DNA from: Hahella sp. KA22
GTDB lineage: Bacteria; Pseudomonadota; Gammaproteobacteria; Pseudomonadales; Oleiphilaceae
DNA length: 64,000 nt
Direction: 5' to 3'
Assembly (NCBI RefSeq): GCF_004135205.1
Contig: NZ_CP035490.1
Location: 6,501,501-6,565,500 of the forward strand
The notes beneath the pieces were generated by a model that saw nothing but the letters and a program-made list of their open reading frames with translations, had not been told where the DNA came from and ran no database searches. This document shows, piece by piece, positions 15,896 to 20,930 of the stretch. Made by a program: the position numbers and the translations under genes. Position 1 is the first letter of the stretch, and every line of letters begins with the position of its first letter.

Positions 15896-17020
15896 TTACC
15901 TGGCTGGCAACTGTCCGTACAGATCAGTCAGCAAACGCTCCGTTTCATCCCAACCAATGCAACCATCCGTGATGGAGACGCCATACTGCAGCGGTCTGTC
16001 AGGATGTACTTTCTGAGTTCCTTCTTGCAGATAACTTTCCAGCATGACGCCCATGACCGTGGAGCTACCTGTTTTCAACTGACGCGCGACTTCATTCAGC
16101 ACTTTGGACTGGTTACGGAAATCTTTCCGGCTGTTGTCGTGGCTGCAGTCCACCATCAAACGCACGGGAAGGCCGTGTTTTTCCAGCGCTTCGCTGTACT
16201 CTCTTACGCTATCTTCATCATAGTTAGGTTTTCCTCTGCCGCCGCGCAACACTAAGTGAACGTGGGGGTTGCCGAGGGTTTTGCGCATTTGGGGACGTCC
16301 GCAGGTGGACAAGGTGGGGTAACAGTGAGGAGAGCGGCTGGATTGCATGGCTTGTATCGCCACTTCCACACCGCCGTCCGTTCCGTTCTTGAATCCGACT
16401 GCGGAGGTCAGGCCGCTGGCCATCTCTCTGTGCAATTGACTCTCTGTGGTGCGAGCGCCAATTGCTGTCCAGGACACCAAATCCTGCAAGTAGTCCGACA
16501 CAATCGGACTCAACGCCTCAGTCGCCAAAGGCAGACCGAGATGCGCCAGTTCAACCATCAGCCTTCTGGCTTTGTCCAAGCCGTAAGCCATATGGTGAGA
16601 ACCGTCCAGCAGAGGGTCATACACCAGACCTTTCCAGCCGACGGTAGTGCGAGGCTTTTCTACGTAGGCGCGCATAACGATCTGCATGCGGTCGTCCAAT
16701 TGCGGCTTCAGTTCAGCCAAGCGGCGACCGTACTCCAGCACGCCATCGGTGTCGTGTACGGAGCAAGGTCCGACAACAACCAACAGACGCGGGTCATCGC
16801 CGTGCACAATATTATTGATCGCTGTCCGCGCATTCTCAAGCTGTGTGGCCAAGTACGCGTTAACGGGATAGCGGTGCCGAAGTTGATTGGCGGAGGGCAG
16901 GATATCGCCCATCGGCTGTATTGGTGGCTCCATATGTTTCAATGTCTCGTCGATAACTGCTCTTGCCTTGATTCCCATCGACTTTACGCCGGATTCTTTG
17001 ACTGTCGCTGCCTGGTTCAT
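15896..17020 (-). CDS. 3-deoxy-7-phosphoheptulonate (DAHP) synthase, class I AroFGH type
   Basis: This 374-residue enzyme condenses phosphoenolpyruvate and erythrose 4-phosphate to DAHP, the first step of aromatic amino-acid synthesis. Motifs include VGPCSVHD, MRAYVEKPRTTVGWKGL, GARTTESQLHRE, GFKNGTDG, HLVLRGG and DCSHDNS, which carry the PEP and metal-binding residues of the E. coli-type family. ATG 17020 has GGGAGAG six bases upstream, so it is preferred to the ATG at 17053. The upstream region encodes an aromatic leader peptide and a terminator, implying attenuation. Which feedback type (Phe, Tyr or Trp) it is cannot be told by eye, so no symbol is given. Confidence 0.93.
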   Translation of the reverse strand: MNQAATVKESGVKSMGIKARAVIDETLKHMEPPIQPMGDILPSANQLRHRYPVNAYLATQLENARTAINNIVHGDDPRLLVVVGPCSVHDTDGVLEYGRRLAELKPQLDDRMQIVMRAYVEKPRTTVGWKGLVYDPLLDGSHHMAYGLDKARRLMVELAHLGLPLATEALSPIVSDYLQDLVSWTAIGARTTESQLHREMASGLTSAVGFKNGTDGGVEVAIQAMQSSRSPHCYPTLSTCGRPQMRKTLGNPHVHLVLRGGRGKPNYDEDSVREYSEALEKHGLPVRLMVDCSHDNSRKDFRNQSKVLNEVARQLKTGSSTVMGVMLESYLQEGTQKVHPDRPLQYGVSITDGCIGWDETERLLTDLYGQLPAR

Positions 17021-17292
17021 TGGTTCTCTCCCGGTATTACTCTGTGTCTGCATTCGATTCGTTAGTTAGTGATTCAGTTTTAAAATCAATAACTAAATCG
17101 AGACTGACACCACCATCTAGGCAGAAAGCGACCGCACACATCACTATGTTGAAGCGCCGGCGCCGGTTCCCTGTCCTCATTAGTATACGACTGATTACCC
17201 GTCATGACCTTACCCTATTGATTACCTGTTTGCTTCAATCCAACTGCCAACGACACCTTGTTGATTCGCAGCTTCCAGTCTCGCGAGGGTAT

Positions 17293-17325
17293 AAAAAAAG
17301 CCCCGGAGACGTTTGCCTTCGGAGC
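17293..17325 (-). terminator. Attenuator terminator upstream of DAHP synthase
   Basis: On the minus strand GCTCCGAAG (17325-17317) pairs with CTCCGGGGC (17308-17300), with one mismatch and one G-U pair and an 8-nt loop, followed directly by seven U residues (17299-17293). It sits about 75 bases after the leader stop and about 270 bases before the DAHP synthase start. Confidence 0.82.
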
Positions 17326-17398
17326 TTCTTTGAGAGTTCTTCCGGAAGGCAGTTTCGTTAAACGCGCCTTCCTGTAAACCTATGTATGCGGGGGCTCG

Positions 17399-17518
17399 TT
17401 AACGATGGTTATAAAAATAAAACCAAAAATGCCAACCGCTAAAATACGCACGAACGCCAGCAACCGCTGCGTTGCCGGAGAAAGATTTGGAAATGTTGAG
17501 AGTGTTGTGCGTATTCAT
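17399..17518 (-). CDS. Aromatic leader peptide for attenuation of DAHP synthase gene
   Basis: This 39-codon ORF starts at ATG 17518 and stops at TAA 17401-17399. Residues 25-36 read YFSGWHFWFYFY: four Phe, three Tyr and two Trp in 12 codons, far above any chance expectation. The ORF lies on the same strand as the DAHP synthase gene and ends about 75 bases before a terminator hairpin with a U-tract. This is the arrangement of amino-acid biosynthetic attenuators, in which ribosome stalling at control codons prevents termination. The mix suggests that starvation for any of the three aromatic amino acids relieves termination. The ribosome binding site is weak (AGG about 13 bases upstream). Confidence 0.85.
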   Translation of the reverse strand: MNTHNTLNISKSFSGNAAVAGVRAYFSGWHFWFYFYNHR

Positions 17519-17566
17519 GGACTAAATACTAACCTGCGGTTTTAACAAAAAGCAACTGCAAACGGG

Positions 17567-17604
17567 AAAAAAGTTCGAAGGCGCCAATAACGCCTCCCTT
17601 TCGA
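17567..17604 (-). terminator. Probable terminator of the YceH-like gene
   Basis: Minus-strand AGGCG (17595-17591 pairing with 17583-17579) with flanking TCGA complementarity forms an imperfect hairpin, followed by six U residues (17572-17567). It begins five bases after the YceH-like stop. The bulged stem lowers confidence. Confidence 0.5.
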
Positions 17605-17608
17605 CGCC

Positions 17609-18268
17609 TTACACCACCTGCCCCAACTGCCTTAGCTTCTTCTTCAATGCCTCGTTTTCCTCCTGCAGCGCCTCCAGACGCGCCTCCAAATCCGTAATCC
17701 TCGCCTTGTAGGCGGAAATGTTGCCGGAGTCAGAAGGGGCCGCCGTTTCTATCGGCTCTATGTCGCTGCTGAACATGTGCATGTATCGCGACTCTCTCTT
17801 GCCTGGCTCACGGGGCAACATCGCGACCAGCGGTCCCTGCTTGTGTTCCAGCAGCCGTTTCAGCGTCGCTTCCACAGCCAGGACATCGGTGAACTCCGCC
17901 ATTCTGCTGGCGCGTGAGCGCAGCTCTCCCGGCGTTTGCGCGCCCCGGAGCAGGAGTTCACATACCACCGCGACTTGCTGCGCATCCAGCTTAAGTTCGC
18001 CAAACTCTGTGTTACAAAAACGATGATGGTACTTTTCCACCCGGCTTCCATAACTGCTGCCTTTCACCAGGTCTTTGCGCTGCAACGCTTCCAGAGTCTG
18101 GCGGACAGTCGCTTCATCCAATTCCAGCACTGGATGGCGGTTGCTCTTCTGATTACAGGCGTTCACCAGCGCATTCAATGACAGCGGATATTGGTCCGGC
18201 GTAGCGATTTCTTTTTCCAGCAAGACCCCGACCACACGGGTTTCATACAACGTCAGATCTTTTTTCAT
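17609..18268 (-). CDS. YceH-like DUF480/UPF0502 protein
   Basis: The 219-residue cytoplasmic protein matches the UPF0502 family: ETRVVGVLLEKEIATPDQYPLSLNALVNACNQKSNR at the start is diagnostic, and two winged-helix-like domains span about residues 5-170. The C-terminus (about 182-215) is a predicted coiled coil with Leu heptads. The function is unknown; the fold suggests nucleic-acid or protein binding. An AGGAGAGG site precedes ATG 18268. The membrane J-domain gene lies 39 bases upstream on the same strand. Confidence 0.88.
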   Translation of the reverse strand: MKKDLTLYETRVVGVLLEKEIATPDQYPLSLNALVNACNQKSNRHPVLELDEATVRQTLEALQRKDLVKGSSYGSRVEKYHHRFCNTEFGELKLDAQQVAVVCELLLRGAQTPGELRSRASRMAEFTDVLAVEATLKRLLEHKQGPLVAMLPREPGKRESRYMHMFSSDIEPIETAAPSDSGNISAYKARITDLEARLEALQEENEALKKKLRQLGQVV

Positions 18269-19888: not shown

Positions 19889-20084
19889 GCGGCGACGCCG
19901 ACGGCAAAATTAATGTAATCGCGGACTCTTCTCCCACAAACTATTAGAAAACTTAACGGGAAGTCCTTAGAGTACATGCTTTTCTATTTCCAAACGCCAA
20001 CACTCCCGGCGACGCTTGGGGCCAGAGTCAGTTCAGACACGCGGCGTCCCGCTTTTCGTCCGGCGCATAGTTACGAGGTTCAAG

Positions 20085-20930
20085 GTGATTGTCTATCAAG
20101 GTCATGAGGGCGCTTACTCCCATCTGGCGTGCAAGCATGTATTTCCCGATCGCGAAGCGCGGGCTTGCGGCTCGTTTCGCGCAGCCATGGAAGAAGTGGA
20201 GCAAGGCAAAGCGGAACTGGCGATGATCCCTCTGGAAAACTCCACCGCTGGACGTGTGGAGGAGATTTACCGCTTAATTCCGCAAATGAGCCTGCACATT
20301 CAGGAAGAACACTTCGAAGCGGTAAACCACTGCCTCATGGCGCTTCCCGGGGCGCATCTGGAAGATCTGCGCATCGTCGGCTCACACCCCCAGGCGCTGG
20401 CGCAATGCGCCGACCACATCCGCGAGCTGGGACTAGACCCAGTCGCCACGTTGGATACCGCCGGCGCAGCCCTTGAGGTCAGCCAGAGCGGCGATAAAAC
20501 CAGAGCCGCCATCGCGTCCAGCCTGGCGGCGGAGCTGTATGGGCTGGAGATTCTGAAAGAAAATTTTCAGGACAAAACCGGCAATACCACTCGTTTTATT
20601 ATCCTCTCCCACGAAAACAGACTCCCTCCCCTTGAGCCGGGTGTGAAGTACATCACTTCGCTGCTCTTTCGGGTGCGCAATATTCCCGCCGCGCTATACA
20701 AGGCTTTGGGCGGGTTCGCCACCAACGGCGTCAATCTGGTGAAACTGGAAAGTTATATGCCCGGCGGCACTTTGAACGCCAGTCAATTCCACGTGGACAT
20801 TGAGGGGCATATCGACTCGCCGAATATGAAGCTGGCCTTGGAAGAGCTGACTTTCTTCGCTGAGGATATCCGCATGCTGGGCACATACCGGGCTCACCCC
20901 ATGCGCGCCAGCCGCAGCTTTCACGACTAG
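20085..20930 (+). CDS. pheA: Prephenate dehydratase
   Basis: This 281-residue monofunctional enzyme converts prephenate to phenylpyruvate in phenylalanine synthesis. The catalytic domain (about 1-180) contains YQGHEGAYSH, MIPLENSTAGRV and GNTTRFIIL, the last with the Thr-Arg-Phe active-site motif. A C-terminal ACT domain (about 190-270; NIPAALYKALGGFATNGVNLVKLESY) is the Phe feedback site. The N-terminal chorismate mutase domain of the P-protein is absent. GTG 20085 is preferred because GAGG lies six bases upstream and the family begins here; the longer frame would need TTG 20016. Confidence 0.92.
   Translation: MIVYQGHEGAYSHLACKHVFPDREARACGSFRAAMEEVEQGKAELAMIPLENSTAGRVEEIYRLIPQMSLHIQEEHFEAVNHCLMALPGAHLEDLRIVGSHPQALAQCADHIRELGLDPVATLDTAGAALEVSQSGDKTRAAIASSLAAELYGLEILKENFQDKTGNTTRFIILSHENRLPPLEPGVKYITSLLFRVRNIPAALYKALGGFATNGVNLVKLESYMPGGTLNASQFHVDIEGHIDSPNMKLALEELTFFAEDIRMLGTYRAHPMRASRSFHD

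Follow-up and report, generated by a model that had tools for sequence, protein, structure and literature searches.

A putative transcription attenuator with phenylalanine, tyrosine and tryptophan control codons upstream of one DAHP synthase paralog in Hahella and its relatives

A DAHP synthase gene in the window, a 64,000-nucleotide stretch of the Hahella sp. KA22 genome (contig NZ_CP035490.1, positions 6,501,501 to 6,565,500; coordinates below count from its first letter), is preceded by an element that we read, with a probability of about 0.87, as a ribosome-mediated transcription attenuator carrying control codons for all three end products of the pathway and standing before one DAHP synthase paralog (Table 1). 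Should this reading hold, a single leader would bring together the supply of all three at the first committed step of the pathway, a multivalent leader design that is otherwise known from branched-chain amino acids.

Table 1. Features of the leader region and the gene that follows it in the window.
Feature	Position	Strand	Basis or remark
Promoter-like boxes TTGCTT (17555-17550) and TAGTAT (17531-17526), 18-nt spacer	17526..17555	minus	By eye; just before leader ATG
Leader 1 ORF, 39 codons/39 aa, MNTHNTLNISKSFSGNAAVAGVRAYFSGWHFWFYFYNHR	17518..17399	minus	ORF list
Putative control codons, residues 25-36, YFSGWHFWFYFY	17411..17446	minus	F, Y and W all also in relatives
Segment 1, CGTTAACGAGCCCCCG	17389..17404	minus	Spans leader stop codon; segment 2 is the proposed partner on an upstream stall
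Segment 2, GGAAGGCGCGTTTAAC	17357..17372	minus	Alignment, swap test
Segment 3, GCCTTCCGGA	17341..17350	minus	Proposed partner 2 (termination) or 4 (antitermination)
Segment 4, terminator 5' arm	17315..17326	minus	Fold, alignment, swap test
Segment 5, terminator 3' arm with U7	17293..17310	minus	Terminator/fold, alignment
ORF2, second aromatic-rich small ORF, MTGNQSYTNEDREPAPALQHSDVCGRFLPRWWCQSRFSY	17086..17205	minus	RFS/WRFS core recurs in other families
Possible hairpin over ORF2 stop (CGATT...AATCG, AGTTA...TAACT)	17055..17100	minus	Predicted from fold
DAHP synthase gene, AroFGH type	15896..17020	minus	NCBIfam aroFGH, 436 bits (cut-off 173)

The leader is exactly as a preliminary description of this DNA had it: the 39-codon ORF encodes four Phe, three Tyr and two Trp at residues 25-36, that is, 9 aromatic residues in 12, and a rho-independent terminator on the strand of the DAHP synthase gene is present as a hairpin with seven T at 17293-17327. 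A block of 9 in 12 is far beyond chance. Among the 724 window ORFs of 20-80 aa, the leader alone has at least 7 aromatic residues in 12, and in the chance control of 60 first-order Markov windows (71,587 ORFs of 20-80 aa) four ORFs reach 7 of 12 and none reaches 8 or 9. The 236-nt leader also folds better than 200 of 200 dinucleotide shuffles (z -4.8). Three of the features that mark an attenuator are found together here, namely a short ORF with what appear to be control codons for the pathway product, an intrinsic terminator between this ORF and the gene (its U run is absent in L010 and interrupted in 14 of the best 80 of 580 related loci, which counts against the reading; see below), and a conserved, mutually exclusive antiterminator over the locus set, with one of its helices (1:2) weak in the window copy. 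The window leader has a weak Shine-Dalgarno sequence, which we counted against the attenuator reading.

A consensus promoter scan at its threshold called no promoter before the leader, a further point against that reading. Among 16 hand-chosen own-family loci, all but L034 (15 of 16) carry GTTG(C), resembling a -35 box, some 35 bases upstream of the leader ATG, and in those loci an AT-rich, -10-like box can be seen by eye near the leader ATG; the RNA start would then fall within a few bases of that codon. The upstream gene (17609-18268) is followed by a terminator-like hairpin at 17577-17597 on the minus strand, which leaves about 60 bases for the leader promoter. At the other end of the element, the DAHP synthase start at 17020 seems preferable to the ATG at 17053 because of the GGGAGAG at 17032-17026. 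Some 3 kb from that gene, on the opposite strand, lies a stand-alone prephenate dehydratase gene (20016-20930, plus strand, NCBIfam PRK11899).

Comparison with relatives suggests a five-segment switch like that of the his operon, in which a readthrough state (1:2 with 3:4) and a termination state (2:3 with 4:5) are mutually exclusive. RNA polymerase would start beside the leader ATG, and a ribosome would translate the leader. With Phe-, Tyr- and Trp-tRNA all charged, this ribosome would proceed to the stop codon and cover segment 1, so that 2:3 and 4:5 would pair and transcription would end at the U7 terminator. With a shortage of any of these three, the ribosome would instead stall in YFSGWHFWFYFY, upstream of segment 1, which would be free to form 1:2; 3:4 would then pair, the terminator would be blocked and the gene would be read. 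This is the stall/no-stall segment logic of his-type attenuators. The leader peptide is probably the starvation sensor, and the codons point to sensing of Phe, Tyr and Trp alike; the promoter, the ribosome stall and the response to each amino acid are parts of the scheme that we infer. A ribosome halted as late as the last Tyr codon would overlap segment 1 in part, which counts against the scheme.

The earlier account of the switch was right about the pairing of GCCTTCCGGA with the terminator 5' arm (3:4), which is present and conserved, and had missed the pairing of segment 1, at the 3' end of the leader behind the aromatic codons, with segment 2, which the switch needs. It had also proposed that AGCCCC, just after the leader stop, pairs with GGGGCT of the terminator 3' arm. 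These letters are present in the window and are not conserved: the pair occurs in four near-identical loci (L001, L004, L005 and L006) of the six Hahella-type loci and is absent in L007 and L008, and we rejected it as a general mechanism. The check that it had proposed came out in its favour: the aromatic codons are kept in relatives and the stems covary.

For the stems, we aligned 44 own-family loci, leaving out L010 (no U run) and L003 (a duplicate); a shorter alignment, misregistered at segment 2, was dropped. The terminator-state pairs (2:3 and 4:5) are formed in 81.3% of cells compared with 74.8 +/- 0.5% in shuffles, with two-sided changes in 60 cells vs 22.6, and sliding the helices lowers pairing to 26-46%. 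Two of the five measures computed on this alignment, the count of pairs in which both partners changed (equalled or exceeded in 71 of 500 shuffles) and the count of pair types (in 467 of 500), lay within the range of the shuffles.

We then compared each segment's own partner with partners swapped between loci (15 representatives, 20,000 permutations). Own partners win on average in all four helices: for 1:2 the mean energy is -19.1 vs -15.3 when swapped (3 of 20,000 permutations as good), and no permutation was as good for 2:3 (-17.3 vs -14.3), 3:4 (-17.1 vs -13.5) or 4:5 (-15.9 vs -13.9). Single loci vary. The 1:2 helix of the window (L001; -11.5 kcal/mol, z -1.3) is the weakest of the 15 and ranks 7 of 15 in the swap, and among the 44 aligned loci only L033 has a weaker one (-10.8). 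Own partners were not preferred for 1:2 in L009 (rank 11 of 15), nor for 3:4 in L048 (rank 11), L018 and L042 (both rank 9). Examples of the 1:2 pairing are TTAAGCG/CGCTTAA in L007, CCGGGC/GCCCGG in L013, and GGCCAGCC with GGCTGGCC in L018.

DAHP synthase was detected in 161 of the 163 own-family genomes searched. We examined 52 own-family loci, two of which (L001 and L003) are one place, and found the leader ORF in 45 of the 51 distinct loci, a set that leans towards the leadered paralog since most of its members are best-scoring hits. The six leaderless loci comprise the second paralogs L002, L051 and L052 together with L039, L040 and L049. Each of the latter three is the sole DAHP synthase match in its genome, at 48-50% identity to the query, and two of the three genomes are 68% and 88% complete. 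The leaders vary from SGWHFWFYFY in Hahella to FFWWFGYGFYFSQ..GRP in many species of another genus, named Marinobacter.

The preliminary description took the leader to replace separate control of isozymes. This was rejected: the window genome has two DAHP synthase genes, the second of which (L002) lacks a leader, and in all eight genomes in which a leadered copy and another paralog were examined, the other paralog is leaderless. We extracted 90 DAHP synthases, removed 18 near-copies and built a tree of the other 72. One branch with support of 100/99 separates its 45 leadered from its 27 leaderless enzymes, compared with 21.9 changes in shuffles; the bootstrap had not fully settled, labels were set by hand, loci found with the RNA model R1 (below) are leadered by selection, L010 was placed among the leadered, and no leader was scored for weak chance ORFs in some leaderless loci (e.g., L087 and L098). 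Judging from these sequences, the leader is a mark of one DAHP synthase paralog and not a substitute for isozymes.

To follow the leader beyond the family, we took 46 other families and sampled a single genome of each. DAHP synthase was present in 44 of them (59 matches), and upstream DNA was covered for 57 of the 59 matches, two G183 fragments being left out. Defining presence as an aromatic ORF plus a terminator at most 750 nt upstream, we found the leader in 5 of the 44 families (f43, f20, f36 and f38, plus f7 at L076), and the other paralogs of those five genomes (L114, L121, L113, L115 and L091) are without one. Judging in part by the named loci, we take handles such as f1, f7 and f20 to stand for Marinobacter/Hahella, Pseudomonas or Halomonas. 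An RNA model trained on the own-family alignment alone (R1) gave full-length matches before DAHP synthase in f7, f20, f36, f38 and f43. At E 0.05 it matches 319 of 390 genomes of the order, a tally that we set aside as a leader count; many of the matches listed span model positions 105-185 (the terminator) only. In one batch of R1 hits, 12 loci (L139-L149 and L152) have both leader and DAHP synthase, while the f16 hit shared by R1 and P15 (G521, L150; P15 is treated below) and the f23 hit of R1 (G441, L151) were rejected as leaders. Outside the order, a class-wide search with R1 found the same kind of leader before DAHP synthase in two f207 loci (L153 and L159), where it could reflect inheritance or transfer. 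Beyond the window, L153, L159, L161 and G181:C9, none of the class-search hits examined lies before a DAHP synthase gene (L156 was read in part and G568:C131 left out).

The preliminary description had named Oceanospirillales as the place to look for relatives. The range is wider and takes in Pseudomonas, Halomonas and Marinobacter: among named loci, taken as the best 80 of 580 relatives by similarity to leadered enzymes and silent on other DAHP synthases, the genera include Halomonas, Salinicola, Chromohalobacter, Marinobacter, Stutzerimonas and many Pseudomonas, next to a Hahella sp. HN01 locus at 99% identity. All 80 of these best 80 of 580 have Phe, Tyr and Trp codons in the leader. Under a strict leader-plus-terminator rule 66 of the 80 qualify, and in each of these the last 22 residues include F, Y and W; the remaining 14 show, by eye, such a leader followed by a GC-rich hairpin whose U tract is interrupted. 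Interrupted U tracts (GGGGGTTCTGCGTTT and similar) were seen in L171, L174, L176, L179, L185, L188, L203, L213 and other Halomonas-type loci.

The retention of all three kinds of codon bears on whether the attenuator might answer mainly to one amino acid, such as Phe, with the other aromatic codons of little effect. There is a precedent in Corynebacterium glutamicum AroR, which is described as containing Phe-Tyr-Phe and yet responding to Phe and not to Tyr (PMC11802643). In the best 80 of 580 named relatives, F, Y and W are all kept, even where the block is as short as FFGYWFS, and we consider a response to essentially one amino acid rather unlikely.

The element has a catalogued counterpart in Pseudomonas. 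The Rfam family RF00627, entered as 'Pseudomonas sRNA P15' with the type Gene, spans the stretch from leader codons to terminator at 93-136 bits (cut-off 70) in 7 of the 11 loci scanned, six of them named Pseudomonas and the seventh L081 of f20. Two Halomonas loci scored 24 bits, under this cut-off, and there was no match up to E 5 in L007 and L043 or up to E 10 in window positions 17000-17700. Across the order, P15 matched 40 of 381 genomes, 19 of them above the cut-off, in families f20, f43, f36 and once f16; none of the 40 belongs to the window's own family. The P15 and R1 places coincide in G280, G522, G346, G326 and G253. The window element and P15 share their place before the same DAHP synthase paralog and their extent from leader codons to terminator; they differ in that P15 is catalogued as an sRNA and its model finds no match on the window. 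As the window element falls below the P15 threshold, we do not file it as P15; by its position, the enzyme tree and model R1, it nevertheless appears to be related to it, and P15 in Pseudomonas is best read as the terminated transcript of the attenuator. This would give a concrete function, across several Pseudomonadales families, to an RNA that the sources covered here call only 'sRNA' or a possible riboswitch.

Those two labels correspond to two further explanations. The terminated RNA could be a trans-acting small RNA, with the ORF incidental or secondary, in keeping with the Rfam entry and with the statement in PMC2375449 that counts P15 among the sRNAs detected by Livny et al. Against this, sequence change has left the ORF with its aromatic codons in place before one DAHP synthase paralog, and the mutually exclusive pairings suit attenuation; we regard such an RNA as highly improbable as the main explanation, and a trans role may exist in addition to attenuation. 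Still less credit goes to a ligand-binding riboswitch, an idea put forward for P15 in PMC2527527 on the ground of its synteny with a TPP riboswitch: conservation falls on codons and on short arms that alternate, and no riboswitch is among the four sub-threshold Rfam hits at the element. No Rfam family scored above threshold in the window. The best hit on the element was RF00514 (His_leader), itself below threshold at 24.8 bits and E 0.09 (cut-off 49).

The attenuator reading has several parallels among known systems. The his operon attenuator (RF00514) likewise uses alternating segments shifted by a stalled ribosome, and the enterobacterial ilvGMEDA attenuator reads several amino acids with alternating segments; both differ from the present element in having their own control codons and gene, and the His_leader score on the window is weak. 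The trp and pheA attenuators of gammaproteobacteria each read their own end product in a terminal branch rather than at the entry step; they too act through leader translation, as described in PMC5343134 and PMC11878033. Closer in target is the aroR-aroF attenuator of C. glutamicum (Neshat et al., 2014; PMC11802643, PMC4046766), in which an aromatic leader peptide before a DAHP synthase gene controls transcription by ribosome stalling; it belongs to another phylum and its description gives Phe-Tyr-Phe and mentions no Trp, and it is by description that we set it apart. The uORFC-13-1 motif before Acholeplasma aroF, again from another phylum and compared by description, is a predicted attenuator with a Phe-codon uORF and a terminator before DAHP synthase, for which Phe alone is mentioned (PMC8632094). 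For Shewanella, aroF is given in PMC2659441 as an 'attenuator sensing tyr-tRNA', with E. coli work cited. The terms 'aroF', 'DAHP' and 'aromatic' are absent from the main text of the terminator survey by Naville and Gautheret (PMC2965389). In the literature covered, we found no description of a triple aromatic attenuator for P15 or for a gammaproteobacterial DAHP synthase leader; an earlier prediction could be contained in Livny 2006, Panina 2001, Vitreschak 2004 or Neshat 2014. The attenuator reading bears on how Pseudomonas, with a TyrR-type regulator reported to act mostly on degradation (PMC5343134), controls aromatic biosynthesis and, if right, would be useful for engineering aromatic production in Pseudomonas putida.

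Between the terminator and the gene lies ORF2, which is probably functional. Its core TGGCGATTTAGC (WRFS) is present in Pseudomonas, in Halomonas-type loci and in several own-family genera, and the ORF is found also in L007, L018, L024, L043-L047, L073-L075, L080-L082, L171, L193 and others; we did not see it in those short-gap Marinobacter-type loci that were examined. Among the named loci (best 80 of 580), 58 of 80 carry the core string upstream, at least one of these (L175) being a chance match, and 56 of 80 carry it at a distance of at most 420 nt. A scan of 11 loci gave no Rfam match above its cut-off at ORF2.

Tentatively, and at somewhat less than even odds, we propose that this paralog in Pseudomonas, Halomonas and Hahella relatives carries two tandem leaders that read aromatic codons: the trivalent attenuator, whose terminated form would be P15, and ORF2 (TGGCGATTTA core, WRFS), which would gate translation through an H-type pseudoknot or through complementarity to the ribosome-binding region. 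If true, tRNA charging would control entry into the aromatic pathway twice.

The putative pseudoknot after ORF2, two helices that cross, was assessed in 33 loci, namely 32 of the 56 core-string loci plus L230, which were picked by their looks with near-copies and the other type left out. Pairs are formed in 90.7% of cells vs 86.9% in shuffles, with 18 two-sided changes vs 8.2 and a covariation score of 0.170 vs 0.110; as these loci were hand-picked by type, the figures lend support and are no proof. Sliding the structure by +3 columns gave 22 two-sided changes, 46.5% pairing and a score of 0.110. Two column pairs fail often (30:54 in 15 of 33 loci and 42:73 in 14 of 33), and helix 2 is out of register in L167 and L172.

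As a general mechanism, pairing between ORF2 and the ribosome-binding region of the gene found no support: in a swap with 13 representatives, own partners averaged -18.7 vs -17.5, and 1,633 of 20,000 permutations were as good. The only loci in which it stands out clearly from shuffles are L024, L043, L044, L045, L047 and L004, and it is weak in L001 (L046 was left out). In a Pseudomonas subgroup of 21 loci, many of them close relatives, a complementary stretch (G-U allowed) of at least 6 bases precedes the start codon in 18; 10 of these lie under 2% of shuffles, 7 at 6.8-7.4% and one (L186) at 15.6%, and the other three loci have 5 bases, at 55-60% of shuffles.

A translational variant may exist in the window's own family as well. 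In L010 (genome G018), the leader AAWSFGFYFWYFLAAF is present without a U-run terminator, and ACTCTCT...AGAGAGTAATG could mask the ribosome-binding site of the gene, which suggests a switch from transcriptional to translational attenuation at this locus.
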